In this document: positions 37,154 to 50,383 of the stretch, piece after piece
How positions within the stretch are numbered: position 1 is the first letter of the stretch
How the letters are laid out: each line of letters begins with the position of its first letter
NCBI GenBank assembly: GCA_017400135.1
Contig: JAFPVJ010000027.1
Coordinates: 124,001 to 188,000, forward strand
DNA: 64,000 nucleotides
Source: Bacteroidales bacterium
GTDB taxonomy: Bacteria > Bacteroidota > Bacteroidia > Bacteroidales > UBA932
Direction: 5' to 3'
Made by a program: the position numbers and the translations under genes
The notes under the pieces: generated by a model
The model's database searches: none
What the model saw: only the letters and a program-made list of their open reading frames with translations
Told to the model about the DNA's origin: nothing

Positions 37154-37182
37154 AGAAAAAAATGCAGAATGATTATTCTGCA
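37154..37182 (-). terminator. kdtA terminator overlapping its stop codon
   Basis: An 8-bp perfect stem (TGCAGAAT/ATTCTGCA, 37163-37170 with 37175-37182) with a 4-nt loop, followed on the minus strand by a T-rich tract (37154-37162). The kdtA stop codon (37173-37175) lies inside the hairpin. Confidence 0.75.
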
Positions 37183-38366
37183 GGCCCAAAAATGATGTTC
37201 ATGATAGTGGCTGTGGCGCCGGCGGACTGGCGGCAGTACTCGGCGGCGATCTTTCCGGTGCGCTCCAGGAACTTCCGGTCTCCCACCGATTTCTCGAAGA
37301 AGAATTCCAGTTCCTGCTGGTTCGTTACGGGGAATCCGGCCTCCAGCGCCGCGAGGTCCTTGCAGTGCAGTTCGCGGTCATAACGGGGCCCGAATGCCAC
37401 CGGGATCCCGTAGGCGGCCGGCTCGATCACGCTATGCGGCATGGGGCCGGTAAAGCCGCCTCCCACGTAGGCGGCGAATCCGTACCGGTACAGCCTGGAC
37501 AGCATGCCGACCGTGTCTACCACCAGAATCTGGGCGCCCAGCAGCGCGTCGTCCGCCTTTTTCCCTTTATAATCCGTATAGCGGACGGCACCGTTCGTTG
37601 CGCCGGCCAGGATGCCGTTGACTTCTGCGGCATCCAGTTCGTGCGGGATGATCAGCATCCTGACTTCCGGATGGGTGTTGGCCAGTTCCACCAGCATCCG
37701 GTCTTCCGGCTCGTAGGTGCTTCCGGCGACGAACACCTTCACGCCGTCGCACCAGAGGTCGACGAGGGGATCGTTCCATTTCTGCCGGCAGACCGTGACC
37801 ACGCGGTCCACGCGCGCATCGCCGACGACCTTTACCTTCGGGACACCCATCTGCTCGAGGAGGCGCTTACTATCCTCGTTTTGGACCATCACGCAGCGGT
37901 AACATTGCTGCAGGATCTGTCGCTGAACCCGTCCGTACCATTTCAGGTAGGGAGAGTCGGGCTCCATGCGCACGGACATGATATAGGTCTCAATCCCTCG
38001 CTTGCGCAGGCCATTCAGCAGGAAGGGCCAGTGCTCTCCGATGTTGAATATGGCCTTGACGGGCCGGACGGCATTCAGGAAGCGGCGAGCATTCCAGGGC
38101 GTGTCCAGGGGCAGGTAGAAGACCCAGTCGACCTGGTCGTAGTCTTTCATCGGCTCATAGACGGTGGGGGAGAATACGGTCAGGAGAATCTTCCGCTTAG
38201 GGAAACGCGCCCGTGTCGCCTCGATGACGGGGCGGGCTTCTTCAAATTCGCCGAAGGAAGCCACATGGAACCAGATGATGTCCCGCTTGCCCCGGCAGGC
38301 GGACTCGATCTTGCGCAGGAGTCCGATCCTGCCTTTGATAAAGAGTTTCAGTTTGTCCGTGTTCAT
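37173..38366 (-). CDS. waaA: 3-deoxy-D-manno-octulosonic acid transferase
   Basis: The 397-residue GT30 enzyme (also called kdtA) transfers Kdo from CMP-Kdo to lipid IVA in lipopolysaccharide core synthesis. It shows IIWFHVASFGEFEEARPVIEA (the catalytic Glu region), NIGEHWPFLL, GDARVDRVV and the C-terminal donor site GGGFTGPMPHSVIEPAAYGIPV. Compared with the Bacteroides enzymes I know, it lacks the hydrophobic N-terminal anchor of about 20-30 residues; a perfect -7 box only 22 bp upstream of the ATG supports the short start. It is likely a monocistronic unit. Confidence 0.92.
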   Translation of the reverse strand: MNTDKLKLFIKGRIGLLRKIESACRGKRDIIWFHVASFGEFEEARPVIEATRARFPKRKILLTVFSPTVYEPMKDYDQVDWVFYLPLDTPWNARRFLNAVRPVKAIFNIGEHWPFLLNGLRKRGIETYIMSVRMEPDSPYLKWYGRVQRQILQQCYRCVMVQNEDSKRLLEQMGVPKVKVVGDARVDRVVTVCRQKWNDPLVDLWCDGVKVFVAGSTYEPEDRMLVELANTHPEVRMLIIPHELDAAEVNGILAGATNGAVRYTDYKGKKADDALLGAQILVVDTVGMLSRLYRYGFAAYVGGGFTGPMPHSVIEPAAYGIPVAFGPRYDRELHCKDLAALEAGFPVTNQQELEFFFEKSVGDRKFLERTGKIAAEYCRQSAGATATIMNIIFGPAE

Positions 38367-38527: not shown

Positions 38528-39013
38528 TCAGTCTGCGACCGTTTCGACCAGGACCGTTTCCAGTTCCTGCCGGTCCATCTGGCCGTCCAGGCAGATGAAG
38601 GTGGCTTCGGGGCCGTCCGCGGCGATCATCACGAAACTGTTGACGACTTTTTCCGTGCCTACGGTATACATCCGGACCACTTCGCCGCCGTCCTTGCTCT
38701 CCATCAGGAGTTCATAACGGCCGTTGGAGATGAATCGGCTCACTTCCGAACTGAGTTTCTCGTTGACGCGGGCGTTCTCGCTGTTGATGATGTACAAGCC
38801 GGAAAGGGAACGGATGAGGGGGGCCAGGTTGACATGGTTGTCACCGACTTCCAGGTCCGGGATCTTGCCGATGAGCCGGAACATGGCGGGGGAGATGTAC
38901 ACGGCGCTGACGTTCTCTGCGTCGGAATACTTCTGATAAATGCTTTTTCCGCTCTGGGCGGAGGCGGTCAGTGCGGTGAGCAGCAGGACCGCAATGAGGA
39001 TTATGCGTTTCAT
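38528..39013 (-). CDS. DUF4252 secreted protein (second copy of the operon)
   Basis: A 161-residue protein with a signal peptide (MKRIILIAVLLLTALTASAQ) and a DUF4252-type domain: SAVYISPAMFRLIG, SLSGLYIINSENA, YELLMESKDGGEVVRMYT and a C-terminal FICLDGQMDRQELETV. It has the same order of elements as the first gene of the operon (LTSFIYD..., LLMETRDGDDLMQIYG), so the two are paralogues. Its start overlaps the anti-sigma-like gene by 4 bp. Function is unknown; location is probably periplasmic. Confidence 0.82.
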   Translation of the reverse strand: MKRIILIAVLLLTALTASAQSGKSIYQKYSDAENVSAVYISPAMFRLIGKIPDLEVGDNHVNLAPLIRSLSGLYIINSENARVNEKLSSEVSRFISNGRYELLMESKDGGEVVRMYTVGTEKVVNSFVMIAADGPEATFICLDGQMDRQELETVLVETVAD

Positions 39014-39414
39014 TGGATATTGATTTTTTCGAGGACGTTGAGGGTTTTCTCGGCCACGGGCTTGGCTTCGCGGGCGATGTCTACGCCGGTGGCCATCTTG
39101 TCGGAAATGCTCTGGAAGACTTTCTCCACCTCGGCGTAGGCCAGATAGGGGTCGTCGAAGGTGTCCTTCGGCTCGCGGTTCCCCAGCCGGGGCAGGACCA
39201 ATACCGCAGCCAGGGCGGCAGCGGCGGCCAGAGCCGTATAGGAGAAGGCGCGGACCGGGGACTTGCGGACGGTGGCTTCCTCAGCGAGGCTTTTGGCGGC
39301 CAGGTTGGCGGAGAGCCGCTGCTGCAGTCCTTCGGGGACCGGAGCCGGATCCTGCAGGGCGGCCTGCTCCAGCTCTTCCCATTCGAGTTTTTCGAGTTCT
39401 TCTATGCTTTTCAT
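39010..39414 (-). CDS. Putative single-span anti-sigma factor
   Basis: A 134-residue protein with a short acidic cytoplasmic N-terminus (about residues 1-50), one membrane span (about 57-77, YTALAAAAALAAVLVLP) and a C-terminal part of about 55 residues. No zinc-binding HxxxCxxC motif is seen. It overlaps the ECF sigma gene by 4 bp, which together with topology suggests an anti-sigma factor; sequence alone would not prove this. Confidence 0.6.
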   Translation of the reverse strand: MKSIEELEKLEWEELEQAALQDPAPVPEGLQQRLSANLAAKSLAEEATVRKSPVRAFSYTALAAAAALAAVLVLPRLGNREPKDTFDDPYLAYAEVEKVFQSISDKMATGVDIAREAKPVAEKTLNVLEKINIQ

Positions 39415-39890
39415 ATTCTTGACTTGATCGTGGTGCGTGCGCGGGAAAGCAGCACGCGGAGGGTGAGATAATTCATTCCGGTCCGTTCGGCGATTTCTTC
39501 GTAGGAAAGGCCTTCGACGGTACGCAGGAGCAGGATCTCGCGCTGTCGGTCAGGAAGGGACTTGATGGCCTCCAGGACCTTGTCCAGGCGCATTTTCTGG
39601 TCCATCTCGTCATCCTGGAGGTGCGGGGTCTCGGGCTCCGGAAGCTGCTCCGGGAAGCTGAGGTGCCTCGCACGGCGGATGCGGTCCAGGCAGAGGTTCT
39701 TCAGGAGAGTGACGCTGTAAGCCTTGGGGGAGCGGATGCCGTCGAGGGCGTCGCGCGTGTCCCAGAGCTTCAGATAGAGTTCCTGCACGGCGTCTTCGGC
39801 TTCGGCCTGCGACTCCAGCATGTAGAAGGCGATCCTGTACAGCGTGTCCGCAAGGGACAGGTACTCCTTATGGAACTGGGCCTCAGTCAT
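39411..39890 (-). CDS. ECF-type RNA polymerase sigma factor
   Basis: The 159-residue protein has region 2 (YRIAFYMLESQAEAEDAVQELYLKLWD, about residues 17-43) and region 4 (LPDRQREILLLRTVEGLSYEEIAERTG, about residues 112-138) of the sigma-70 ECF subfamily, with no region 3. It starts inside the upstream DUF4252 gene (8-bp overlap) and its stop overlaps the anti-sigma-like gene. The regulon is unknown; the flanking DUF4252 genes are the obvious first targets. Confidence 0.92.
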   Translation of the reverse strand: MTEAQFHKEYLSLADTLYRIAFYMLESQAEAEDAVQELYLKLWDTRDALDGIRSPKAYSVTLLKNLCLDRIRRARHLSFPEQLPEPETPHLQDDEMDQKMRLDKVLEAIKSLPDRQREILLLRTVEGLSYEEIAERTGMNYLTLRVLLSRARTTIKSRI

Positions 39891-40389
39891 TGTCTGCGAT
39901 GACGCGAGCGAGCTTTTCGATGGGAATGGATCCGAAGATGCAGATCAGGGACGATTCGGTCGGGTTGTGCAGGACGAAATCCCGGACCGTGCCGTTGTTC
40001 TCATCCACGACACCGTAGATCTGCATGAGGTCATCTCCATCCCGGGTCTCCATCAGCAGGTCGCTTCCGTCCAGCATCCGGTCCAGCTTGCGGCTGATTT
40101 TGTCCTGGATGGCCGGTTCGCAGTTCTCGTAGTTCAGGACGGAGATCCGCTTGATGCCGGTGATGAGTTTCAGCGCGGCGCGGACATCCGGATCATCGGA
40201 CGCCGCCACCCGGAGGGAAGCCCTCAAGGCCATCGCGGCCAGTCCGCCGAGCTGGACCACCTCCACGCCTTCGTAACGCTGGCAGTCATAAATGAATGAG
40301 GTGATCTTGGATTTGGGGACGCTGCCTCCGGCAGTGGCCGGGGCAAACATGGGCAGCAGGATCGCTGCAAGTAGCAAAATCTTTTTCAT
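39883..40389 (-). CDS. DUF4252 secreted protein (first gene of the sigma operon)
   Basis: A 168-residue protein with a signal peptide (about residues 1-21, MKKILLLAAILLPMFAPATAG). The DUF4252-like domain contains ITSFIYDCQRYEGVEVVQLG, ISVLNYENCEPAIQDK, LLMETRDGDDLMQIYGVV and SLICIFGSIPIEKLARVI. It shares the pattern of the last gene in the operon, which points to duplication. Its position ahead of the ECF sigma factor suggests a role in sensing or in the response, but no mechanism is known to me. Confidence 0.8.
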   Translation of the reverse strand: MKKILLLAAILLPMFAPATAGGSVPKSKITSFIYDCQRYEGVEVVQLGGLAAMALRASLRVAASDDPDVRAALKLITGIKRISVLNYENCEPAIQDKISRKLDRMLDGSDLLMETRDGDDLMQIYGVVDENNGTVRDFVLHNPTESSLICIFGSIPIEKLARVIADND

Positions 40390-40405: not shown

Positions 40406-40436
40406 CAAAGATTCTTTTTGTTAACAAGGAATCAAA
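40406..40436 (-). promoter_or_regulatory. Candidate promoter of the DUF4252/ECF operon
   Basis: TTTG (40433-40436), 19 nt, then AATCTTTG (40406-40413) on the minus strand: one mismatch to the vegetative consensus. The -33 element overlaps the stop codon of the ptmE-like gene. An ECF-like GTTAAC-N15-GCGTC arrangement overlaps the same bases. Confidence 0.45.
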
Positions 40437-41454
40437 GATGTTTCACCAGGTCGCAGGCTTTCTGGTATTCCTTGAGGGTGCCGATGTCGATCCAAGTGCC
40501 GTTGAGGGGGTAGCGGATGACCTTGCGTCCTTCGTCCACAAGTTTCTGGATCAGATCCGTGGCGTGGAAGAAAGCCCCTTCCGGAATTTCCGCGATGACG
40601 GAACGCTTCATCAGGTAGATACCTGCCAGCGCATAATAATTATAGACAGGTTTTTCCGAGACGCCTTTCACCTCCCGGCCGTCCAGGTCCAGGATGCCGA
40701 GCGGGATGGAGACGTCGTAGGGGACGGCCGCGACCGACAGGTCGGCGCCGTACTCCTGGAAATGCAGGAAAAAGTCCTCGAAATCAATGTTGGTAAACAG
40801 GTCGGAGTTCATCACCAGGACGGTGTCGTGCTCGAAAGCCGGCATCAGCCGCACCGAGCCGACCGTCCCCAGGAAATCCTTTTCGTGGAAGCATTTGACC
40901 CGTACGCCGTCGCGCGGCGCTGCAAAATGCTCCTCCAACTGCCCGGCCAGGTAATTGACGGACACGGTGATGTCCCGGACCCCGTAGGAGATGATCCGGT
41001 CCACGTTGTGGTCGATGATGGCCTTGCCGCCGACCGGCAGCAGCGGCTTGGGCGTATTCTCCGTCAGGGGAAGCAGACGCTCTCCCTTGCCGCCCGCCAT
41101 CAGGACGGCGTCCACGGGCAGGAGCGAGTGATATTTCAGGAGGTTGAGCGTGTCGACGATGCGGTCATCGGCGTCCAGGATGGGGATGAACAGGATGCGA
41201 TTCTGCCGGAATTCCCGGATGCGGGAGACATCCGCCTCGCCGGCGCGCAGGAATTTGAAATCCCGGTGCATTACGGCCGAAACGGGGCTGTCGATGCCGG
41301 CGCCGGCGAGCATGCCCCGGCGCACGTCCCCGTCGGTAAGAGTTCCCTTCATCCGGCCTTCGCCGTCGGTGACAAAAAGGGTCTGGGCCTCGCTGAGGTC
41401 CAGAAGGGCGAGCGCTTCCCGGACGCTCGTGGATATGTCGATGATGTACTTCAT
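40432..41454 (-). CDS. CBS-domain sugar-phosphate nucleotidylyltransferase (PtmE-like)
   Basis: A 340-residue protein with two CBS repeats (about residues 1-115, TSVREALALLDLSEAQTLFV and VMHRDFKFLRAGEADVSRI). A nucleotidyltransferase domain follows, starting DAVLMAGGKGERLLPLTENTPKPLLPVGG, with MNSDLFTNIDFEDF as metal-binding segment. This CBS-plus-NTP-transferase architecture matches PtmE, the glucosamine-1-phosphate guanylyltransferase of the GDP-based legionaminic acid pathway. The frame is open to 41490, but the ATG at 41454 lies 1 bp after the SDR stop. Last gene of the ten-gene nonulosonic acid cluster. Confidence 0.82.
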   Translation of the reverse strand: MKYIIDISTSVREALALLDLSEAQTLFVTDGEGRMKGTLTDGDVRRGMLAGAGIDSPVSAVMHRDFKFLRAGEADVSRIREFRQNRILFIPILDADDRIVDTLNLLKYHSLLPVDAVLMAGGKGERLLPLTENTPKPLLPVGGKAIIDHNVDRIISYGVRDITVSVNYLAGQLEEHFAAPRDGVRVKCFHEKDFLGTVGSVRLMPAFEHDTVLVMNSDLFTNIDFEDFFLHFQEYGADLSVAAVPYDVSIPLGILDLDGREVKGVSEKPVYNYYALAGIYLMKRSVIAEIPEGAFFHATDLIQKLVDEGRKVIRYPLNGTWIDIGTLKEYQKACDLVKHL

Positions 41455-41455
41455 A

Positions 41456-42211
41456 TCAGATGCAGGTCCAGCCGCCGTCGGCGGCAACATTCTGTCCGGT
41501 CACATAGCGCGCCATGTCGGAGGCCAGGAAGATGGCCACGGGGGCGATGTCTTCCGGCTCCGCCATCCGCTTCATCGGGCACTGGCGGGTATAGTTGCGG
41601 AGAAAGATTTCGTTCTGGTTGGGACTGTTGCGGTCTAAGACGCCGCCGGGGGACACACAGTTGACCCGGATGTTCCATTTTCCCAGGTAGGAAGCGAGGT
41701 AGCGGGTGAAATTGATGATGCCACCCTTGATGGCGCAGTAGGCACCGGTGGAGGTGCCGCCGTATTCCTCGTAGATGGTGAAATTGTTGCCCACGATGCC
41801 ATAGATGGAGCCGAAGTTGACGATGGCTCCGTCCTTCTGTTTCATCATCACCTTCGCCACCTGCTGGTCGAGGTAGAAGACGCTGTCCATCTGGAGCTCG
41901 ACGTTGCGCTTGAAGTGCTCGTAGGGTTCGTCCTCGAAGAAATAGTCGCTCCAGTCCTTGGTGTGGGGGTAGGCGCTGTTGATCAGCGCGTCGATCCGGC
42001 CGTAGTGCTCCACGGCGAAGGCGACCAGGGCGTCGATGGAGGCGTTGTCGCTCAGGTCGAGCCGGAAGGTACCCTTTGCCGCGTCGGTCTCCAGGGCGAT
42101 GTCGGCGTTGAGCACGCGGGCTCCCGCTTCCTTGAGCTCCCGGACGATTTCGCGGCCGATCAGGCCGCAGCCGCCGGTGACGATGATGGCTTTGTCTTTT
42201 ATTCCAAGCAT
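41456..42211 (-). CDS. Short-chain dehydrogenase (PtmA-like)
   Basis: The 251-residue SDR has the NAD(P) motif TGGCGLIGREIV, the NAG-like region ALINSAYPH, and catalytic Tyr-Lys within GAYCAIKGGIINFTRYLA; near the C-terminus are GGVLDRN and YVTGQNVAADGGWTC. In Campylobacter the SDR PtmA lies beside ptmB, ptmE and ptmF in the legionaminic acid locus, and the order here (CMP-synthetase, Gfo/Idh, SDR, ptmE) is similar. It overlaps the Gfo/Idh gene by 13 bp. The substrate is inferred only from context. Confidence 0.82.
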   Translation of the reverse strand: MLGIKDKAIIVTGGCGLIGREIVRELKEAGARVLNADIALETDAAKGTFRLDLSDNASIDALVAFAVEHYGRIDALINSAYPHTKDWSDYFFEDEPYEHFKRNVELQMDSVFYLDQQVAKVMMKQKDGAIVNFGSIYGIVGNNFTIYEEYGGTSTGAYCAIKGGIINFTRYLASYLGKWNIRVNCVSPGGVLDRNSPNQNEIFLRNYTRQCPMKRMAEPEDIAPVAIFLASDMARYVTGQNVAADGGWTCI

Positions 42212-43107
42212 AGTTTCAACACTTCGTAGGCTTCAAACACGTCGTTGAAGGGGGCCGGAGCCTCCTTCCCGAGCAAAGATAGGAAATACTTCATTTGCTC
42301 CCAATAGTCGTCCCCGTCGGCCTGGCGGCTCTCGAAGAGCACGCGCCCGTCCGCATCGGTGACGCGGCCCGCACCGAGGTCCGCGACAAAGGTGCCTTCA
42401 TCGGCGACGATCTCCACCGTGCGCTTGTAGTTGCGGCGGTAGTAGTCGAGGATGACGGAGACGCAGAAATCCTCATATTCCAGGCAATAGTTGGCGTAGT
42501 CCACGGCTTCGATGCCGAGGGAAGAACTGTGCCGGAGCGTCTTGCGGCTGCACTGCGGGTCGCCGAAGATCCAGTGGACGTAATCCAACTCGTGGATCAG
42601 GTCGATGTGGACGCCGCCGCCGAGCTCCGGGCGGGCGCTATAGCAGCGGCGCCAGTCCGTGCCGGGACGCCATTCCGGTAAGTAGGAGCCGCAATAGACG
42701 TTGATTTCGTTGATGCGCAGGCCCTGCACGAAGCCGTGCAGGTAGCGCAGGGTGTCGGTGAACCGCAGGTTGCAGGCGACGTAGGTCAGCGTCCCGCGCC
42801 GCCGTATCTCCTCCAGCAGTTCCCCGTGTCCCAGTTCAGCGAAAAGGGGCTTCTCGATGAAGAGCGGGATGCCCAGGGGCAGCAGCTGAGAGATCGCATC
42901 GGCGTGGCAGGCCGTGGGATTGGAGACAATGGCGAAGTCGAAGGGACCACCGGCCTGGTCCAGACTGCGGATGTCCCGCACGCCCGGTACCGAGGCGCCT
43001 CCGGCCGAAGACCGCAGGGCGGTGATGTCGACGACCGGATCGATGCGCCGCAACGCGGCGATATGCCTGCGGGCGATCGAGCCCAGTCCCACGATCAAAA
43101 CTCTCAT
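42199..43107 (-). CDS. Gfo/Idh/MocA oxidoreductase (PtmF-like by context)
   Basis: A 302-residue cytoplasmic oxidoreductase that begins MRVLIVGLGSIARRHIAAL (Rossmann fold) and carries FIEKPLFAELGHGEL (EKP motif near residue 92) and GGGVHIDLIHELDYVHWIFG (near residue 165). The frame is open to 43185, but the ATG at 43107 overlaps the CMP-synthetase stop as ATGA and gives the family start. Position matches the ptmF slot in Campylobacter ptm loci, as I remember them. Its exact step in the pathway is not established here. Confidence 0.78.
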   Translation of the reverse strand: MRVLIVGLGSIARRHIAALRRIDPVVDITALRSSAGGASVPGVRDIRSLDQAGGPFDFAIVSNPTACHADAISQLLPLGIPLFIEKPLFAELGHGELLEEIRRRGTLTYVACNLRFTDTLRYLHGFVQGLRINEINVYCGSYLPEWRPGTDWRRCYSARPELGGGVHIDLIHELDYVHWIFGDPQCSRKTLRHSSSLGIEAVDYANYCLEYEDFCVSVILDYYRRNYKRTVEIVADEGTFVADLGAGRVTDADGRVLFESRQADGDDYWEQMKYFLSLLGKEAPAPFNDVFEAYEVLKLCLE

Positions 43108-43823
43108 AGTTCGAATCCGAGTTTGTCCTGCTCCAGCAGGTAGCTCATATAGTCGAAGTCTGCCGGCTCGTCCAGGTCGAAGCACAGGTGCGGCATGACG
43201 TAGACCAGCGACAGGGGCGTGTTGGGATCCCGCCGGCCCAGCTCGAAGAAGGCGCGCCGGTAGATGTAGAAGGACCCGTTCATGTCATAGACCTTCGGGG
43301 CGCTCTGGCGCGTCGTGAAACGACTGCCGTCCTTGACCAGCTCGTAATAGCCGGACTCCTTCAGCTCCACCATGTTGAAATAGGGGTTACGGGCGGCCGG
43401 ATTAACGGAAAAGAGGTTCAGCGCCTGAGGGTCGGCTTCCAGGATGCGGAAGCCTTCCAGGATGTCATCCACGGTCCGCAGGGGAGAGGTGCAGTCCAGG
43501 TCGAGCAGGCAGTCATAGCGACAGCCGTTCGCCCTCTCAGCCCACTCGAGGGCATCCGCAATGGCGTCCAGCTTGGCGCAGCGGTCGTCCGCCAGGCGGG
43601 CGGGACGGCGGTATTCCGTCTCGAGGCCCCATTCCGCCGCACAGGCGCGGATGGCCTCCGAGTCGGTCGAGAGCAGGATTTCGGCATCGCCGAGGCGCTC
43701 CCGGACCTTGCGGGCGCAGTCTATGCTGTAGGCGATGAGGGGCTTGCCGGCGATGGGCTTGATATTTTTGCCGGGAATGCCTTTCGAGCCGCCTCGGGCG
43801 CAGATGGTGATCAGTGTCTTCAT
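43104..43823 (-). CDS. CMP-nonulosonic acid synthetase (NeuA/LegF/PtmB-like)
   Basis: The 239-residue protein is an acylneuraminate cytidylyltransferase-type enzyme that activates a nonulosonic acid with CTP. Motifs are LITICARGGSKGIPGKNI at the N-terminus, DCLLDLDCTSPLRTVDDI (near residue 90) and a C-terminal LCFDLDEPADFDYM. It sits next to the synthase gene (ATGA overlap). Whether the sugar is legionaminic rather than sialic or pseudaminic acid is inferred from the ptmA/ptmE/ptmF-like neighbours. Confidence 0.9.
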   Translation of the reverse strand: MKTLITICARGGSKGIPGKNIKPIAGKPLIAYSIDCARKVRERLGDAEILLSTDSEAIRACAAEWGLETEYRRPARLADDRCAKLDAIADALEWAERANGCRYDCLLDLDCTSPLRTVDDILEGFRILEADPQALNLFSVNPAARNPYFNMVELKESGYYELVKDGSRFTTRQSAPKVYDMNGSFYIYRRAFFELGRRDPNTPLSLVYVMPHLCFDLDEPADFDYMSYLLEQDKLGFEL

Positions 43824-44818
43824 ATCTCTATCGCTTCATCTTTCTTGAAATCTCTGACGGCGCACGTGCCGCAGACCTCGTCCCAGCAGTCGACGCCGAT
43901 TCCGGCGGGGGCACGCTTGACGGCAAGCGAATCGCCGGTCAGCGTCTCGCCCTGGCGGATGTCACGGGCGGCCAGGATGCGTTTCAGCACCGTCGGTGCG
44001 ATGGCTTCCTCGCTGGGGTTGGGGCGCTTGACCCCGTCGCCGAGAGCCGTCTCGATGTGGCGGATCTGCCGGACCATGTCCGCAAAGGCTGCGGGTTCCA
44101 TCGAGGCCGCGTGGTCGGGCCCTTCCATCGTACGGTCGAGGGTGAGGTGCTTCTCGATCACGCAGGCGCCCATCGCGACGGCGGCCACCGGCACCTCAGC
44201 GCCGAGAGTGTGGTCGGAATAACCGACCTTGCAGTGCAGCTCGTCCGCCATCGTCTGCATCGCGCGGAGGTTGACCTCTTCGGGCGGGCAGGGATAATTG
44301 GTCGTGCAGTGGAGCACGGTGATGTCTTCCGCTCCGGCGGTCTGCAGTTCGGCGTATGCCTTGCGTACCCGGTCCATGTCGGACATCCCGGTCGAAAGGA
44401 TCACCGGAACGCCGCGCCGACCCACATAACGCAGGAGCGGCAGGTTGGTGATGTCGCCCGAGCCGAGCTTGACCAGGGGCATGCCCAGGCCCAGCAGGAA
44501 GTCGATGTCTTCGGGATTGTCGCCGGTGGAGAGAAAGCAGATGCCGATGCGGTCGCAGTAGGACTTGATTTCCGCGAACTGTGCGTAGCTGAGCTCCAGG
44601 CCTTTCAGCATCTCGAACTGCGAGCCTCCGCCGCCGAGGTTACGTTGTTGGTAATCAGCCATTTCCGTATCGGCGGCCACGATCTTTTCCGTGACCCAGG
44701 TCTGGAACTTGACGGCATCGGCGCCAGCGGCCTTGGCGGCGTCGCAGAGCCGCAGGGCCAGGTCCAGACGCCCGTTGTGGTTGACGCCGGCTTCGGCGAT
44801 GATGAAAGTCTTATTCAT
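43820..44818 (-). CDS. Nonulosonic acid synthase (NeuB/LegI-like)
   Basis: The 332-residue enzyme condenses phosphoenolpyruvate with a six-carbon amino sugar to give a nine-carbon acid. It has the NeuB barrel (FIIAEAGVNHNGRLDLAL, AVKFQTW, SDHTLGAEVPVAAVAMGACVIEKHLTLDR-type segments, GPDHAASMEP) and a C-terminal SAF/antifreeze-like domain (about residues 265-332). The frame is open to 44866, but the ATG at 44818 gives the family N-terminus and overlaps the ATP-grasp stop by 8 bp. Context favours legionaminic over sialic acid. Confidence 0.92.
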   Translation of the reverse strand: MNKTFIIAEAGVNHNGRLDLALRLCDAAKAAGADAVKFQTWVTEKIVAADTEMADYQQRNLGGGGSQFEMLKGLELSYAQFAEIKSYCDRIGICFLSTGDNPEDIDFLLGLGMPLVKLGSGDITNLPLLRYVGRRGVPVILSTGMSDMDRVRKAYAELQTAGAEDITVLHCTTNYPCPPEEVNLRAMQTMADELHCKVGYSDHTLGAEVPVAAVAMGACVIEKHLTLDRTMEGPDHAASMEPAAFADMVRQIRHIETALGDGVKRPNPSEEAIAPTVLKRILAARDIRQGETLTGDSLAVKRAPAGIGVDCWDEVCGTCAVRDFKKDEAIEI

Positions 44819-45809
44819 GGTAGTCCCTGAGCAGTTCGGATTCGCGCGTGATGACGACATCGTCATACATCAGCATCAGCACCCCTTCGTCGTAGCGGCC
44901 GATTTCCGGCTCGTTGGAGAGGCCGTCGATATTGCGGAGGATGTATTTCATGAAATCCACCCCTGCGCCATACGCATGGAGGTAGGCCCCGCCGAAGCGG
45001 GGATTGATCTCGGACAGGTACCATTGCCCGTCCTTGCAGAAGAAGTCCATGTCGCAGGGCCCGCTGAGTTCCAGCACGGCGCAGACCTCCTTGACGAAGT
45101 CGAAGAGGGCCGGGTCCTTGAAACTCACGGTCTTGGAGGCGCCGCCGATGCGGGTCTCGATCTTGCGCTTGGCGAAGACGGAAACGACCTCGTGCGAGAT
45201 GCAGTCCACATAGACGTCGGCGTCACAGTCGCCACCGGTCATCAGTTCCTGGATGATATAGTCGTAGCGGCCTTCCTTGAAGATCTCTTCCAGGGTGGTC
45301 ATGTCATTCACCCGCCGTGCGCCGACACTGCCACTGCCAGTCACGGGTTTGATGAAGACGGGGAAGGCGATTTCGCCCTTCGTCAGCCCTTTTTTGAAAC
45401 CATTCAAATCCCTGTAAGTCAGTACTGTGCGTACACCGCGGCTGCTCAGGTGCCGGAACATTTCATACTTGTCAAAGCAGAGATGCGCCGTATGCTCGGA
45501 GGGGCAGAGGGGCAGGATGCCGCGGTCGAGAAAGACCTGACGATGGGCGGCGAGCAACTCGACCTCGGGATCGATGAAGGTCGCAACGGCCTTGATGCCC
45601 TCGCGCTCGCAGATGTCCAGCACGGTCTCCAAGTAGTTCCGCTCCCGGATCTTAGGCACGACATACATCTTGTCGGCGAGGAAGAGCGCCGGAGCGACCG
45701 ACCAGTTGTCGGTGCCGACGACCTTGCCTTTTCCGGAGAGGCTCTTGCGGAAATCCAGCATCAGGCGGCCCCGGCGGCCGACATTGCAGCACAGGAGGTT
45801 ATATTCCAT
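44811..45809 (-). CDS. ATP-grasp ligase in the nonulosonic acid cluster
   Basis: A protein of about 332 residues of the carbamoyl-phosphate-synthase-like ATP-grasp type, with an N-terminal domain (LLCCNVGRRGRLMLDF), KYEMFRHLSSRGVRTVLTYR, an ATP site FPVFIKPVTGSGSVGARRV (near residue 150) and a metal site CDMDFFCKDGQWYLSEINPRFGG (near residue 260). Such enzymes join a carboxylate to an amine or thiol through an acyl phosphate. It is translated together with the PLP-fold gene before it (overlap) and legI after it (8-bp overlap). It is not a core legionaminic acid gene, so it may add a substituent. The ATG at 45815 is an alternative start. Confidence 0.8.
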   Translation of the reverse strand: MEYNLLCCNVGRRGRLMLDFRKSLSGKGKVVGTDNWSVAPALFLADKMYVVPKIRERNYLETVLDICEREGIKAVATFIDPEVELLAAHRQVFLDRGILPLCPSEHTAHLCFDKYEMFRHLSSRGVRTVLTYRDLNGFKKGLTKGEIAFPVFIKPVTGSGSVGARRVNDMTTLEEIFKEGRYDYIIQELMTGGDCDADVYVDCISHEVVSVFAKRKIETRIGGASKTVSFKDPALFDFVKEVCAVLELSGPCDMDFFCKDGQWYLSEINPRFGGAYLHAYGAGVDFMKYILRNIDGLSNEPEIGRYDEGVLMLMYDDVVITRESELLRDYHE

Positions 45810-46935
45810 ATCCATTCAGATAATCTTGGGCAGTCCATTCCGCAGTGGCGGGACGGACGGTGGCGTTTTCCCGGACATACACCCGGGGGAAATAGCGGAT
45901 GAAGAGGGGCGAGAGGGCCATCGTGTAGGCGCCGGTGTTGCGGAACACGATGTGGTCGCCGACGTGCAGTTCCGGCCCGTCTTCCAGGCGGAAGAGACGG
46001 TCGTTCTCGAGGCAAGTGCAGCCGACCACGGTCTGCACGGGAGCCGTTTGGCGGCCTTCCTCCACGGTCGGGAATTCCTTGAAATAGTCCGTCTTGCGGA
46101 AGAAGGGGTCGATGTCACCGCGGCTGCCGTCGCAGACCACGACCCGCTCGTTCCTGACGGTCTTGACATCGATGACCGAGGCGAAGAAGGTCAGGGGAGA
46201 GGCGATCAGGGCGTTGCCGGGCTCGATAATGATCCGGGCGCCGCATTCCCGGAGCCCCTCGGCCAGGACGGCCGCATATTCGGCGTAACCCGGCTTGCCG
46301 GGGAAATGGCCGAAGAAACCGCCGCCAATGTCGATGTACTCGGGTTTCAATCCGAACTCCTGCAGGACCTGGATGGCCTTGGCGGCGATGTGGCGGTACA
46401 CCTCCAGGCTCCGGCTCTTGGAAGTACGGTGCAGGTGGATGCCCGCCAGACGGACATTGGGCAGCGCCTGGACGCGGGTGACCGCCTCCGCCAGTTCCGC
46501 TCCGTCGAATCCGAAACGGCTGAAGGTCTCATCCTCGGGCAGGGTCACGTTGACCCGCAGTCCGACTTTGAAACAGCCGTCGGAGGGCAACTCTGCGAGC
46601 CAGTCCAGCTCCCGCCGGCTGTCGAGGTTGACGACGGCGCCTCCCTGGATCGCTTCCAGAAAACTATCTTTCTCCTTGACGGGACCGTTGTAGATGATGC
46701 TTTCGAAACCCAGGGCGCGGGCGAGCCGGTATTCGGTGTCCGAGACAACTTCCGCTGCGGCGCCTTCCTCGCGCAGGATGCGTAGGATCTCCGGGTGCGA
46801 GTTGGTTTTGACCGAATAGGCCACCGTCGTCTCGCTGAAATGTGCGGCGAGCGCTCCGGCGAAATCCCGGAAATTGGCCCTCAGCTCATCGGCGTCGAGG
46901 AGGAAGCAGGGTGTGCGGAGTCGGTTATCGTTCAT
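45799..46935 (-). CDS. PLP-dependent decarboxylase/racemase-fold enzyme (fold type III)
   Basis: A 378-residue enzyme of the ornithine/diaminopimelate decarboxylase family. Visible are the PLP lysine in TVAYSVKTNSHPEIL (near residue 45), GIHLHRTSKSRS (near residue 165), the glycine loop IDIGGGFFGHFPG, the phosphate-binding IIIEPGNAL and a C-terminal GCTCLENDRLF that stands in the position of the substrate-binding Cys-Asp motif. The ATG at 46935 lies inside the legG end (11-bp overlap). It resembles DAP/ornithine decarboxylases, but the substrate is unknown; coupling to the ATP-grasp gene suggests they make and attach an amine or amino acid. Confidence 0.82.
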   Translation of the reverse strand: MNDNRLRTPCFLLDADELRANFRDFAGALAAHFSETTVAYSVKTNSHPEILRILREEGAAAEVVSDTEYRLARALGFESIIYNGPVKEKDSFLEAIQGGAVVNLDSRRELDWLAELPSDGCFKVGLRVNVTLPEDETFSRFGFDGAELAEAVTRVQALPNVRLAGIHLHRTSKSRSLEVYRHIAAKAIQVLQEFGLKPEYIDIGGGFFGHFPGKPGYAEYAAVLAEGLRECGARIIIEPGNALIASPLTFFASVIDVKTVRNERVVVCDGSRGDIDPFFRKTDYFKEFPTVEEGRQTAPVQTVVGCTCLENDRLFRLEDGPELHVGDHIVFRNTGAYTMALSPLFIRYFPRVYVRENATVRPATAEWTAQDYLNGYGI

Positions 46936-48028
46936 CGAAATAGTCTTTAATGTGTCTTGCAATGCGTTCCGACGTGTGTCCGTCGCCGAAACTATGGTCC
47001 GGCGCGAATCTTCCGCCGACGCGGTTCAGGGCGGAGCGGATATCTTCATAGCAGGGGCCGCAGGAAAATACGTTGGCGCATAGGCGCCGGCCCTTCTGTC
47101 GATCGCCGATGTTGACGGCCGGGATGCCGAGGATGGGAGTTTCGATCACGCCGCTCGAGGAGTTACCGACGACGAACCTGGCCTCGTTCATCACGCCGAG
47201 GTAGTTTCGCTGGCCCAGGGATTTGAAAAGATGGAAGTGCGGCTCCCGGCAGCTGCGGTAGATTTCGTTCATCTCCGCTCCGACGGGATCGGCGTTGGCT
47301 TCACTCATGACGATCTCGCAGCCGGGGCGCTCGAGAAGGGCTTTCAGCAGGTTGCGGGCCATCTCCAGATTGGCTTCCCGGCTCTTGCGGGTTTCGGGAT
47401 GCAGGGTGGCCAGGATCCAGTCCTTTCCAGGATCCAGTCCGAGCGCGGCAGCCAGTTCAGCCCGGGAGGGCAGGGGAATGCGGCGGTTGTTCTCCACGCA
47501 GGGCTCTCCGACGTTGAAGACATTGCGGTCGCTGCCGCGCATCCGTGCAATCTCGGCGGCGGCCTCTGCGTTGTTGGGGAAATGGAGCGTGGCCATCATC
47601 GTGACGGCATTCCGTACGCTGTCGTCCAGGGCGCCCTCGGTATGTTCTCCACCCGCGATGTGGGCGATGGGGATGCCGAGCAGCATGGCCGTGCTGCAGA
47701 TGGGCAGCAGCTCATAGCGGTCGCCCAGGACCAGCAGCAGGTCTGGTTTTATTTCAGCGAAAGCATCGGCAAACAGGCCGGCGCAGACACCCGTTTCCCG
47801 GGCGATGCCTGCCGGACTGCGGTCCTCGGAGAGGTAGTCGATCTTGCGGTCGATGCGCACACCGTCCGCCTCGATCTGCCGCCAGGTTTCCCCGAAGGCG
47901 GGGCTGAGATGCGTGCCCGTTACGATCAGTTGCACGTCGAAGCAAGGCTCTGCACGCAGGGCCTCGATGGTCCAGCGCAACAGGCCGTATTCGGCGCGGG
48001 TGGCGGTCACGATGCAGATCTTCTTCAT
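46925..48028 (-). CDS. Hydrolysing nucleotide-sugar 2-epimerase (NeuC/LegG-like)
   Basis: The 367-residue protein belongs to the UDP-GlcNAc 2-epimerase superfamily, hydrolysing branch, which releases the free sugar used by the synthase. It starts KKICIVTATRAEYGLLRW, has LLVLGDRYELLPICSTAMLL and HIAGGEHTEGALDDSVRN (near residue 125), and FVVGNSSSGVIETPILGIPAVNIGDRQKGR (near residue 285). The frame is open further upstream, but the ATG at 48028 overlaps the legC stop (ATGA). In this cluster the substrate is probably a GDP- or UDP-linked diamino sugar. Confidence 0.9.
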   Translation of the reverse strand: MKKICIVTATRAEYGLLRWTIEALRAEPCFDVQLIVTGTHLSPAFGETWRQIEADGVRIDRKIDYLSEDRSPAGIARETGVCAGLFADAFAEIKPDLLLVLGDRYELLPICSTAMLLGIPIAHIAGGEHTEGALDDSVRNAVTMMATLHFPNNAEAAAEIARMRGSDRNVFNVGEPCVENNRRIPLPSRAELAAALGLDPGKDWILATLHPETRKSREANLEMARNLLKALLERPGCEIVMSEANADPVGAEMNEIYRSCREPHFHLFKSLGQRNYLGVMNEARFVVGNSSSGVIETPILGIPAVNIGDRQKGRRLCANVFSCGPCYEDIRSALNRVGGRFAPDHSFGDGHTSERIARHIKDYFDER

Positions 48029-49167
48029 ACGCGGGGACTGCTGGGAAGGTTGACAAGGCGGTCGGCGAGCCAGCGTGTGACCTGCTGGGCGTCGCGTTCG
48101 CAGCCTTCGAACATGGGAAGGTCGGTCATCAGTTCCCAGACGGGCCGGGTCATGACGCCGTGGTCGTTGGTATATTCGAGGAAAGCGTCCCGTTCTTCGC
48201 GGGAAGGGAGCAGGACGGCGTTGAGCCAGTAGTTGGAACGGCAGCCCTCCGGCTCGCGGACGAACTGTAGGCCGCTGCCTTCGAAGAACCGGGCGTATTC
48301 GGCGGCCACTTCGCGCTTGCTCTCGATCAGAGTGTCCAGATTCTCCAGCTGGGCGCATCCCAGGGCCGCGTTGATGTTGGGCATGCGGTAGTTGTAGCCA
48401 ACCGCGTCGTGGCGGAATTCCCAGCGGTGCGGGACCTTTGCCTGGGTGGTGAGGTGCTTGGCCCAGGCGCCCAGTTCGGGGTCATTGAAGAGCAGCATGC
48501 CGCCGCCGCCCGTGGTCAGGGTCTTGTTGCCGTTGAAACTCAGGGCGCCGACCTTGCCGAAGGTGCCGGTATGCTGGCCTTGGTAACGGCTTCCGATGCT
48601 CTCTGCGGCATCCTCGACCAGCTCGATGCCCCATTGTTCGCAGATCGCGGCGATTTCCGTGATGCGGGCCGGGTGGCCGAAGGTGTGCATGGGGACGCAG
48701 GCCTTGATGCGGCGGCCGGTGCGGCGGTTGCGGCAACCGCTGCCGGTGATCGCGGCATATTTCTCCAGCCAGGCCGAGAGGGCGTCGGGGGAGAGTCCCA
48801 GGGTTTCGCGGTCCACGTCGATGAAGACGGGATGGGCGCCGGTGTAGCTGATGGCGTTGCAGGTTGCGATGAAGGTCAGGGACTGGGTGAGCACCTCGTC
48901 CCCACGCTCCACGCCGACGAGCATCAGTGCGACATGCAGGGCGCTCGTGCCGTTGACGCAGACCACGGCTCTCGCCGCGCCTGTGTAGCGGGCGATCTCC
49001 TCCTCGAAACGGTCCACAAAGGGGCCCACGCTCGAGACGAAGGTCGAATCGATGCACTCCTCCAGGTATTTCTTTTCGTTTCCGACAAACTTCGGCACGC
49101 TCAGCGGGACGAAGTCTTCCGTGCCGTAGAGCTGATGGATGAAGTCGGTTATCTCTCTGTAATCCAT
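48025..49167 (-). CDS. LegC-like DegT/DnrJ/EryC1 aminotransferase
   Basis: The 380-residue sugar aminotransferase has VCVNGTSALHVALMLVGV (near residue 60), ELVEDAAESIGSRYQG with the PLP-ring Asp, LSFNGNKTLTTGGGGML with the PLP lysine (near residue 205) and GYNYRMPNINAALGCAQL. It would aminate C4 of the 4-keto-6-deoxy sugar produced by the dehydratase encoded 4 bp upstream. The ATG at 49167 (MDYREITDFIHQLYG) is chosen over an open frame to 49209 because it follows the legB stop. LegC-type enzymes commonly start in this way. Confidence 0.9.
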   Translation of the reverse strand: MDYREITDFIHQLYGTEDFVPLSVPKFVGNEKKYLEECIDSTFVSSVGPFVDRFEEEIARYTGAARAVVCVNGTSALHVALMLVGVERGDEVLTQSLTFIATCNAISYTGAHPVFIDVDRETLGLSPDALSAWLEKYAAITGSGCRNRRTGRRIKACVPMHTFGHPARITEIAAICEQWGIELVEDAAESIGSRYQGQHTGTFGKVGALSFNGNKTLTTGGGGMLLFNDPELGAWAKHLTTQAKVPHRWEFRHDAVGYNYRMPNINAALGCAQLENLDTLIESKREVAAEYARFFEGSGLQFVREPEGCRSNYWLNAVLLPSREERDAFLEYTNDHGVMTRPVWELMTDLPMFEGCERDAQQVTRWLADRLVNLPSSPRV

Positions 49168-49171
49168 GGCC

Positions 49172-50383
49172 TTACATTTTCTGGTCCAGGTTGCGGCCCT
49201 TCTCCTCATGCTCGAAAGAGGGGAGAAAAGCCTTCAGTTCCGCGACCACGTCCGCTTTGGTGTAGGACGGGTCGGAGAAGAGGATTTCCAGGCGGTCGAG
49301 GAAGGCGTTCACCTCCCCCCGGCTGCGTCTGGGACTGTCTTCGATGATGCCCAGGCCGGCGAAACGGCTCTCGTCGATCCGCTCTCCCGGGACATAGAAT
49401 TCTTCGTAGGCCTTCTCGCCGGTGGTGTCGCTGGGGGCGTAATACACGGGCCAGCGGGGACTGTCGTCCGGCATCTCGGCGGCGTAGCGCCGGGCCTCTT
49501 CCTCGCTGCCGAAGGCGACCTTCTCAAGCCCCTGGGCCGCCAGGAAGCGGTCGCAAATGACCGAGAAAGACTGCATCTGCTCCTGCCGGAGCTTGGGGAA
49601 GAAGATTTCCCCGCTGCGGCCCAGGATGCAGGCGAGCAGGCAGATCTGGCCCGATTCCTCCGGGCTGACGAAATAGCGCAGGACGTCGTCGGGAGCGACG
49701 AGCGGCTGTTTTTTCTGCAGGCGGTTCATCCAGCTGTCGGGCAGGGAGCCGTTGGAGAAGGCCACGTTGGCGAAACGGGCGGTGGTGACCGGGAAACGGT
49801 CCCTATACGCCATGATCAGGTCTTCCATCAGGCGCTTGCTCGCACCCATGACATTGACCGGACCGGCGGCTTTGTCCGTAGAGACGCAAAAGAAACGCTC
49901 CGGGAGGCATTCGCTCAGGAGGTCCAGCAGTTTCCTCGCCTTGAGGACGTTGTTCTGCAGGAGGGCGCGAACGGAATGGCGGTCCTTCTCGCTGCGTACG
50001 TGCTTGTGGGCGGAGAAGTTGGCCACGATGTCGAAGCCGCCTTCCTCGCGGAAGATGACCTCGAAGATGGGATCCGCGAAATCCAGGGTATAAGTCCGGT
50101 AGTCTTCCGGGATGGTCAGGCCTTCGGTGCTTCGCAGGTCGCGGGTCAGTTCGGCGAGGCCGTTCTCGCTCAGGTCGACGACCACCAGGGAGCCCGGCCC
50201 GAAGCGCAGGATTTCCTTGATGAAGGCGGAGCCGATGGAGCCGGCGCCGCCGATGACGCAGACCTTCTTGCCGGCGATACGCTCGCGGAGCGCGGACGCG
50301 TTCGCTTCCAGGTCTGCCGCGAAAAGGCTGCGGCTCCGGCCGGTGACGGCCTGCGAGATGAATTTATCGAGATGGAATGCCAT
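49172..50383 (-). CDS. Nucleotide-sugar 4,6-dehydratase (LegB-like)
   Basis: A 403-residue extended SDR of the CapD/FlaA1-like group. It shows VCVIGGAGSIGSAF (near residue 42), DIVANFSAHKHVRSEKD and FCVSTDKAAGPVNVMGASKR (near residue 165), where Met replaces the usual catalytic Tyr, as in this dehydratase subfamily. It would make the 4-keto-6-deoxy intermediate from GDP- or UDP-GlcNAc; the ptmE-like gene suggests GDP. First gene of the nonulosonic acid cluster; its start overlaps the end of uvrA by 20 bp. Confidence 0.87.
   Translation of the reverse strand: MAFHLDKFISQAVTGRSRSLFAADLEANASALRERIAGKKVCVIGGAGSIGSAFIKEILRFGPGSLVVVDLSENGLAELTRDLRSTEGLTIPEDYRTYTLDFADPIFEVIFREEGGFDIVANFSAHKHVRSEKDRHSVRALLQNNVLKARKLLDLLSECLPERFFCVSTDKAAGPVNVMGASKRLMEDLIMAYRDRFPVTTARFANVAFSNGSLPDSWMNRLQKKQPLVAPDDVLRYFVSPEESGQICLLACILGRSGEIFFPKLRQEQMQSFSVICDRFLAAQGLEKVAFGSEEEARRYAAEMPDDSPRWPVYYAPSDTTGEKAYEEFYVPGERIDESRFAGLGIIEDSPRRSRGEVNAFLDRLEILFSDPSYTKADVVAELKAFLPSFEHEEKGRNLDQKM

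Follow-up and report, generated by a model that had tools for sequence, protein, structure and literature searches.

A conserved legionaminic-type operon of Bacteroidales with a PLP enzyme and an ATP-grasp ligase, most likely a new N-acylation module in the place of LegH

A ten-gene operon occupies positions 40432-50383, on the minus strand, of a 64,000-nucleotide stretch of the genome of a Bacteroidales bacterium (UBA932; assembly GCA_017400135.1, contig JAFPVJ010000027.1, positions 124,001 to 188,000). This stretch is referred to here as the window. The conserved operon most likely encodes a legionaminic-type nonulosonic acid (NulO) pathway with a new N-acylation module in the place of the acetyltransferase LegH. 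The module would consist of a fold-type-III pyridoxal phosphate (PLP) decarboxylase-like enzyme (45799-46935) and an ATP-grasp ligase (44811-45815), which most likely attach an amino-acid residue to the C4 amine (later N-7). We give a probability of roughly 0.57 to the reading that the operon product is a cytidine monophosphate (CMP)-activated legionaminic-type NulO in which the acetyl group on the C7 nitrogen is replaced by an amino-acid-derived acyl group. This group is predicted to be 4-aminobutyryl or beta-alanyl; we infer the substrate, the order of the steps, the site and the product from sequence.

The operon genes are tightly packed in the order legB, legC, legG, PLP enzyme, ATP-grasp enzyme, legI, legF, ptmF, ptmA and ptmE. 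With the chosen ATG starts, legB and legC are separated by a gap of 4 bases. The legC/legG, legG/PLP, PLP/ATP-grasp and ATP-grasp/legI junctions overlap by 4, 11, 17 and 8 bases, legI/legF and legF/ptmF by 4 bases each and ptmF/ptmA by 13, and ptmA and ptmE are separated by a single base. The extremes are the 17-base overlap and the 4-base gap. This layout and gene order agree with the first-pass annotation, which had described leg- and ptm-like genes in one direction with overlaps or gaps of no more than 4 bp, and the PLP and ATP-grasp genes between legG and legI, overlapping their neighbours.

In Pfam and NCBIfam scans, LegC, LegG and LegI are homologues of CMP-legionaminic acid pathway enzymes above curated cut-offs. 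The C4-aminotransferase LegC (48025-49167) scores 554 bits against TIGR04181 (cut-off 420). LegG, a hydrolysing 2-epimerase of the NeuC family (46925-48028), scores 379 bits against the NeuC/LegG model TIGR03568 (cut-off 236), and LegI, a NulO synthase of the NeuB family (43820-44818; PF03102), scores 426 bits against the NeuB/LegI model TIGR03569 (cut-off 400). The legB-like nucleoside diphosphate (NDP)-sugar 4,6-dehydratase (49172-50383) matches PF02719 with 121 bits and falls below the PseB (46 bits, cut-off 408) and FnlA cut-offs. The legF-like CMP-NulO synthetase (43104-43823) is above the cut-off of PF02348 (CTP_transf_3; 49 bits, cut-off 22.6) and below those of PseF (110 bits, cut-off 206) and KdsB. 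The ptmF-like Gfo/Idh/MocA oxidoreductase (42199-43107; PF01408, PF02894) and the ptmE-like CBS and nucleotidyltransferase protein (40432-41454; PF00483, PF00571) are named from context. The ptmA-like short-chain dehydrogenase (41456-42211) matches PF13561 and scores 163 bits against FlagModPtmA (cut-off 350).

The Pfam scan of the ten genes detects no acyltransferase, LegH type included. Across the window's own genome (88.6% complete), no NeuD/PglD-type protein (TIGR03570) exceeds the cut-off in a search that did not cover GNAT types (best 50.6 bits against 160.8). Because LegH is missing, the likely site of acylation is the C4 amine, later N-7. In the described route, the N-acetyltransferase LegH acts on the C4 amine made by LegC, and PMC6388019 describes this step as well.

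Two congeneric leg clusters differ from the window at this step. The cluster of G965 (L076; 78% complete) contains legB and legC (66% and 70% identical to the window), an acetyltransferase gene of the true NeuD/PglD type (186 bits, cut-off 161), legI, legG, legF and a ptmE-like gene, and has no relative of the PLP/ATP-grasp pair. The cluster of G084 (L037), which also has no such pair, contains legB (68%), a different legC (37%), legG (46%), legI (60%), legF (36%) and ptmE (58%). Its legG-legI interval (L037 3613-5686) holds a FemAB/GNAT-type acyltransferase together with a 345-residue protein that neither Pfam nor NCBIfam matches, and is possibly another N-acylation module. Since the contents at this step differ, each of the three clusters has a different N-acylation candidate.

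The PLP enzyme contains both Orn/DAP/Arg decarboxylase domains (PF02784 and PF00278) and passes no NCBIfam cut-off. Its best match is lysA (TIGR01048, 143 bits, cut-off 298), and it scores 107.5 bits against the FslC model NF041039 (cut-off 500). K43, H169, G204-G206, E238, C308, D312 and Y337 are invariant in 8 of 8 aligned sequences; we take these Lys, His, Gly-loop, Glu, Cys, Asp and Tyr residues to be the positions expected in a working decarboxylase. Among solved relatives of the PLP profile, the FslC N-citrylornithine decarboxylase (7kh2) ranks first (6e-51), followed by diaminopimelate decarboxylases; BtrK is found at 1.6e-36. The substrate of FslC is citryl-linked ornithine and that of BtrK is a glutamyl-acyl carrier protein, both amino acids being held via the side chain. 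The diaminopimelate-type motifs EPGR and IRP read EPGN and -DP in the PLP enzyme, with both arginines replaced. These arginines are presumably carboxylate-binding in diaminopimelate decarboxylase. An identity as diaminopimelate decarboxylase (lysA) was rejected on the missed curated cut-off and the absent arginine motifs.

The ATP-grasp enzyme belongs to the PRK12767/NF009406 family. It scores 465 bits against NF009406 (cut-off 271), an unnamed 'carbamoyl phosphate synthase-like' family, and has a PylC-like N-terminal domain (PF21360). K156, D257, E269, N271 and R273 are invariant in 7 of 7 sequences. The sole solved relative at 1e-8 is 2pn1, titled 'carbamoylphosphate synthase large subunit'.

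In the proposed pathway, PtmF, PtmA and PtmE would supply a nucleotide-activated amino sugar, by analogy with Campylobacter, and LegB and LegC would convert it to a 4-amino-4,6-dideoxy sugar nucleotide. At the step where LegH acetylates, the ATP-grasp enzyme would couple an amino acid, through a carboxylate, to the C4 amine. The PLP enzyme would decarboxylate the amino acid either before or after this coupling, and LegG, LegI and LegF would complete the CMP-sugar. A decarboxylase acting with a carboxylate-amine ligase calls for an amino acid with two carboxyl groups, one lost and one in the amide. The simplest candidates are therefore glutamate, giving 4-aminobutyryl, and aspartate, giving beta-alanyl. 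The first-pass annotation had assigned to the two extra enzymes the preparation and attachment of an amine or amino-acid substituent. Comparison supports this putative role: the operon has no LegH-type gene, and in a clostridial locus (described below) the pair follows PseC instead of LegC.

It is unlikely that the PLP enzyme is instead a racemase, or a supplier of an undecarboxylated amino acid such as alanine or glutamate, which the ATP-grasp enzyme would attach to the C4 amine. Alanine racemase is among the PLPDE_III folds, the PLP enzyme also matches PF01168 (36 bits) and distant ATP-grasp relatives adjoin other PLP enzymes in sugar loci. However, its C-terminal domain PF00278 is of the decarboxylase type and not of the alanine racemase type, and Cys308 and Asp312, which we take to have decarboxylase-type roles, are invariant in all eight sequences.

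The PLP protein was used as the query in a scan of the contigs of 84,980 species genomes, which returned six loci. Five of the six contain the same ten genes in the same order with similar overlaps. These five are Bacteroidales assemblies, some of them titled as reindeer, red deer or roe deer samples. Their PLP enzymes are 65-70% identical to that of the window, their ATP-grasp enzymes 79-85% and their LegB proteins 68-80%. In comparisons with three of these five relatives (L006, L007 and L008), every one of the ten genes has a nonsynonymous rate (dN) lower than its synonymous rate (dS), although many dS values exceed 1 and the estimates are rough. The same ten-gene order in five other genomes, together with dN below dS, argues that the arrangement is not due to chance.

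In whole-genome samples that include the window's own genome, the PLP enzyme is rare. It is present in 1 of 149 genomes of the family and 1 of 395 of the phylum at 1e-60, and in 2 of 393 of the order at 1e-38, where the only further genome is G919. Two operon relatives share the genus of the window (G1091/G925 and G1080/G927, on the basis of identical contig coordinates). Phage- or plasmid-borne spread was considered and set aside, as phage, plasmid and viral-contig searches gave no supporting matches: the ATP-grasp enzyme has no match in phages at 1e-15, the PLP enzyme has none on plasmids at 60% identity or higher and two viral-contig scans found no relative.

The sixth locus is from Eisenbergiella (L011), a member of the Clostridia. 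Here PseC (459 bits, cut-off 424), a PLP enzyme (42% identical) and an ATP-grasp enzyme (39%) lie in a row, with a gap of 18 and an overlap of 41 bases. The 21 kb examined contain no other relative of the operon proteins, and no NulO synthase was detected in them. PseC is the pseudaminic counterpart of LegC: each enzyme forms the C4 amine of its pathway. The pair is thus tied to a C4-aminotransferase in two settings, LegC in the operon and PseC in Eisenbergiella. The first-pass annotation had asked whether the pair is found mostly outside such clusters; all six scan loci keep it together, five inside clusters and one beside PseC.

This locus bears on two further alternatives. In one, which we regard as improbable, the pair is unrelated to N-acylation: the cells would make ordinary Leg5,7Ac2 with an unlinked GNAT, and the pair would make a lysine- or polyamine-type metabolite. 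The closeness of lysA to the PLP enzyme (143 bits) fits this alternative, and an unlinked GNAT gene may escape the NeuD/PglD search. Against it, overlapping genes enclose the pair in each of the six operon copies, PseC precedes it in Eisenbergiella and the window's genome holds a separate PLP paralogue, 28% identical to the PLP enzyme, that may be the housekeeping enzyme. In the other, the PLP enzyme would make an amine that the ATP-grasp enzyme couples to the C1 carboxylate of the sugar acid. This would suit a decarboxylase and an amide ligase chemically, but it is very improbable, as the Eisenbergiella pair follows PseC in a stretch with no NulO synthase detected and the absence of LegH would be left unexplained.

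More distant relatives of the ATP-grasp enzyme are found on plasmids (7 records, 27-31% identical). Four of the seven were inspected; all four are surrounded by polysaccharide-type genes, and each stretch contains an aminotransferase. Two of these four adjoin a different kind of PLP enzyme and a GNAT. In these two polysaccharide loci, on an Escherichia coli plasmid (NZ_LR890610.1; L102 5547-8993) and a Sphingobium plasmid (NZ_CP047220.1; L103 6501-10283), a DegT aminotransferase, a GNAT, a different PLP-dependent enzyme and the ATP-grasp relative adjoin one another. The same principle may operate here, an amino acid being prepared and attached with the help of another PLP enzyme. ATP-grasp similarity of 22-25% in some congener loci was set aside as probably PurT-like, by reading only.

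Several observations weigh against acylation by the pair. The nearest NCBIfam model of the PLP enzyme is lysA, and a single-sequence search places diaminopimelate decarboxylase narrowly above FslC (8.8e-28 against 2.4e-27). At L005, a weaker PLP relative (34%, BLAST) lies among NeuB-, aminotransferase- and cytidylyltransferase-like polysaccharide genes with no ATP-grasp relative within 19.5 kb, which counts against an obligate pair. A GNAT-type LegH elsewhere in the 88.6%-complete genome may escape the NeuD/PglD search. The names LegB, LegF, PtmF, PtmA and PtmE rest on domains, resemblance and context, with scores below the nearest equivalog cut-offs.

A gene for a WaaA/GT30-family transferase, the family of 3-deoxy-D-manno-oct-2-ulosonic acid (Kdo) transferases, is found on the operon strand, 2 kb further downstream (37173-38366; PF04413, 136 bits, cut-off 23.9) and is proposed as the user of the CMP-NulO. 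The first-pass annotation, whose gene list for the cluster stands, overlooked this downstream gene and the absence of LegH. The protein falls below the NCBIfam Kdo-transferase equivalog cut-offs (138 bits against 438 and 524 for the two best models). It aligns to Aquifex WaaA (2xci) at 6.3e-23 and keeps the GEF motif. Each of the five relatives also has a WaaA-family gene adjoining the operon or close to it. In the window's own genome (G000), no KdsA match was found and the only PF02348 match is LegF, at 88.6% completeness. Each of the five relatives has one PF02348 match, at the legF position, and none has KdsA over the cut-off. Between ptmE and the WaaA-family gene (38528-40389), four open reading frames (ORFs) lie on the same strand; by reading only, one resembles an extracytoplasmic function (ECF) sigma factor and one an anti-sigma-type protein, and the other two, related to each other, look like small secreted proteins.

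The proximity of the WaaA-family gene suggests a destination for the sugar, which may replace Kdo on lipid A. In a sample of 200 congener genomes, PF04413 (WaaA) is present in 27 and PF02348 (synthetase) in 33, 31 of them over the cut-off. All 27 WaaA genomes hold a synthetase, and PF04413 is absent from all 167 genomes that lack PF02348 (Fisher p 6e-28, with no correction for kinship). Copy numbers also match, G947 and G1118 each carrying two of both genes. LpxK is found in 192 of the 200 congeners and in 80 of 80 good assemblies. WaaA and the synthetase are no more than 6 kb apart in 12 of 29 cases. A NeuB-family gene is present on the fetched stretch of the synthetase in 16 of 27 genomes, operon-bearers included; in the other 11 none was seen, partly because of contig ends. 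Five synthetases of other types fall below both the KdsB and the PseF NCBIfam cut-offs. In the WaaA tree (28 rows), sequences cluster by synthetase type, with 9 changes against a shuffled mean of 16.6 and none of 200 shuffles as low. In the congener G022, a dTDP-sugar locus (L040 5702-7992) encodes an aldolase-like protein, HMGL-like by reading, and immediately after it a CMP-sugar synthetase of an unusual type. Three congeners with a synthetase of this type also carry WaaA.

KdsA exceeds the cut-off in only 1 of 28 genomes tested, G947; the other 19 of the 20 WaaA-positive genomes tested have no KdsA over the cut-off. In G947, a KdsB-like gene, a KdsD-like gene and one of the two WaaA genes accompany the KdsA gene, which serves as a positive control. 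This compact kdsB-kdsA-kdsD-waaA set (L057; G947 contig 50, 9 kb) is the only Kdo set in the 28 genomes, and the small contig may be contamination. Weak KdsA-like matches in most genomes were rejected as below the cut-off; those beside LpxK resemble, by reading only, 3-deoxy-D-arabino-heptulosonate 7-phosphate (DAHP) synthases.

Kdo is regarded as the conserved connection of lipid A to the remainder of the lipopolysaccharide. We tentatively suggest, as a possibility short of probable, that the genus lost Kdo and re-purposed GT30 for other CMP-ulosonic acids on lipid A. The first core sugar in the lineage of the window would then be a zwitterionic 4-aminobutyryl or beta-alanyl legionaminic acid, with the ATP-grasp/PLP pair replacing LegH. 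Other observations count against a lipid A destination. Six of the 33 synthetase genomes have no WaaA match: G941 and G1067, both below the PF02348 cut-off, G965, G1035, G1123, in which a WaaA fragment cut by the contig end lies beside the synthetase, and G084, a leg-cluster genome of 99% completeness. A uvrA-sized ORF is a frequent neighbour of WaaA, in the window too (uvrA being judged from size and the window's order), so the adjacency of WaaA to the operon may be inherited. The six operon rows fall into two separate starred groups of the WaaA tree, which indicates that transferase and operon are not simply co-travelling.

A serious competitor, to which we give a little less than even odds, is that the sugar is destined for a capsule, O-antigen or protein glycan and that WaaA is near only since waaA and uvrA are old neighbours. 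In many congeners waaA neighbours a uvrA-sized ORF and sugar genes are absent there, the waaA genes that adjoin the operon belong to two different lineages, and G084 has a leg cluster but no WaaA. This alternative is opposed by the presence of a CMP-sugar synthetase in 27 of 27 WaaA genomes with matching copy numbers, and by the finding of KdsA over the cut-off in G947 alone among the 20 WaaA-positive genomes tested.

If the N-acylation reading is true, amino-acylation by the ATP-grasp/PLP pair would join the known routes of NulO variation, and the amino-acyl group would place a positive charge on an acidic sugar. With LpxK general and WaaA rare and paired with NulO or other CMP-sugar genes, the genus would make the use of sialic-acid-like donors by GT30 enzymes directly testable. 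Among the matches listed, the open-access literature contains no ATP-grasp/PLP pair in NulO synthesis and no NulO-using GT30 enzyme.

Like the WaaA Kdo transferases of GT30, the transferase near the operon matches PF04413 and aligns to Aquifex WaaA; unlike them, it occurs in a genome without KdsA or KdsB as far as searched, where the sole CMP-sugar synthetase is LegF. The CMP-legionaminic route of Campylobacter jejuni, with GDP-linked precursors from its PtmE branch, uses LegB, LegC, LegH, LegG, LegI and LegF with PtmE, PtmF and PtmA. The operon has counterparts of all steps of this pathway but one. It differs in having no LegH, PgmL or GlmU and in having the PLP decarboxylase-like enzyme and the ATP-grasp ligase. 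In butirosin synthesis, BtrK (2j66/7ru7) works next to the ATP-grasp ligase BtrJ. FslC (7kh2) and BtrK share the PLP fold family of the operon enzyme and decarboxylate a side-chain-attached amino acid. The operon differs from these systems in its low sequence identity to them, in lacking an acyl carrier protein gene and in having EPGN in the place of EPGR. The sps legionaminic pathway of Bacillus subtilis is likewise a CMP-legionaminic route with an aminotransferase, acyltransferase, hydrolase, synthase and cytidylyltransferase, but it acylates via SpsD, a putative acetyltransferase (PMC7439481). Among the relatives examined, which include the plasmid proteins at 27-31% identity, no PRK12767 family member with a proven substrate was found. 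Like the PRK12767 ATP-grasp proteins of polysaccharide loci (2pn1), the operon enzyme is above the NF009406 cut-off and has a 4-aminotransferase gene among its neighbours.

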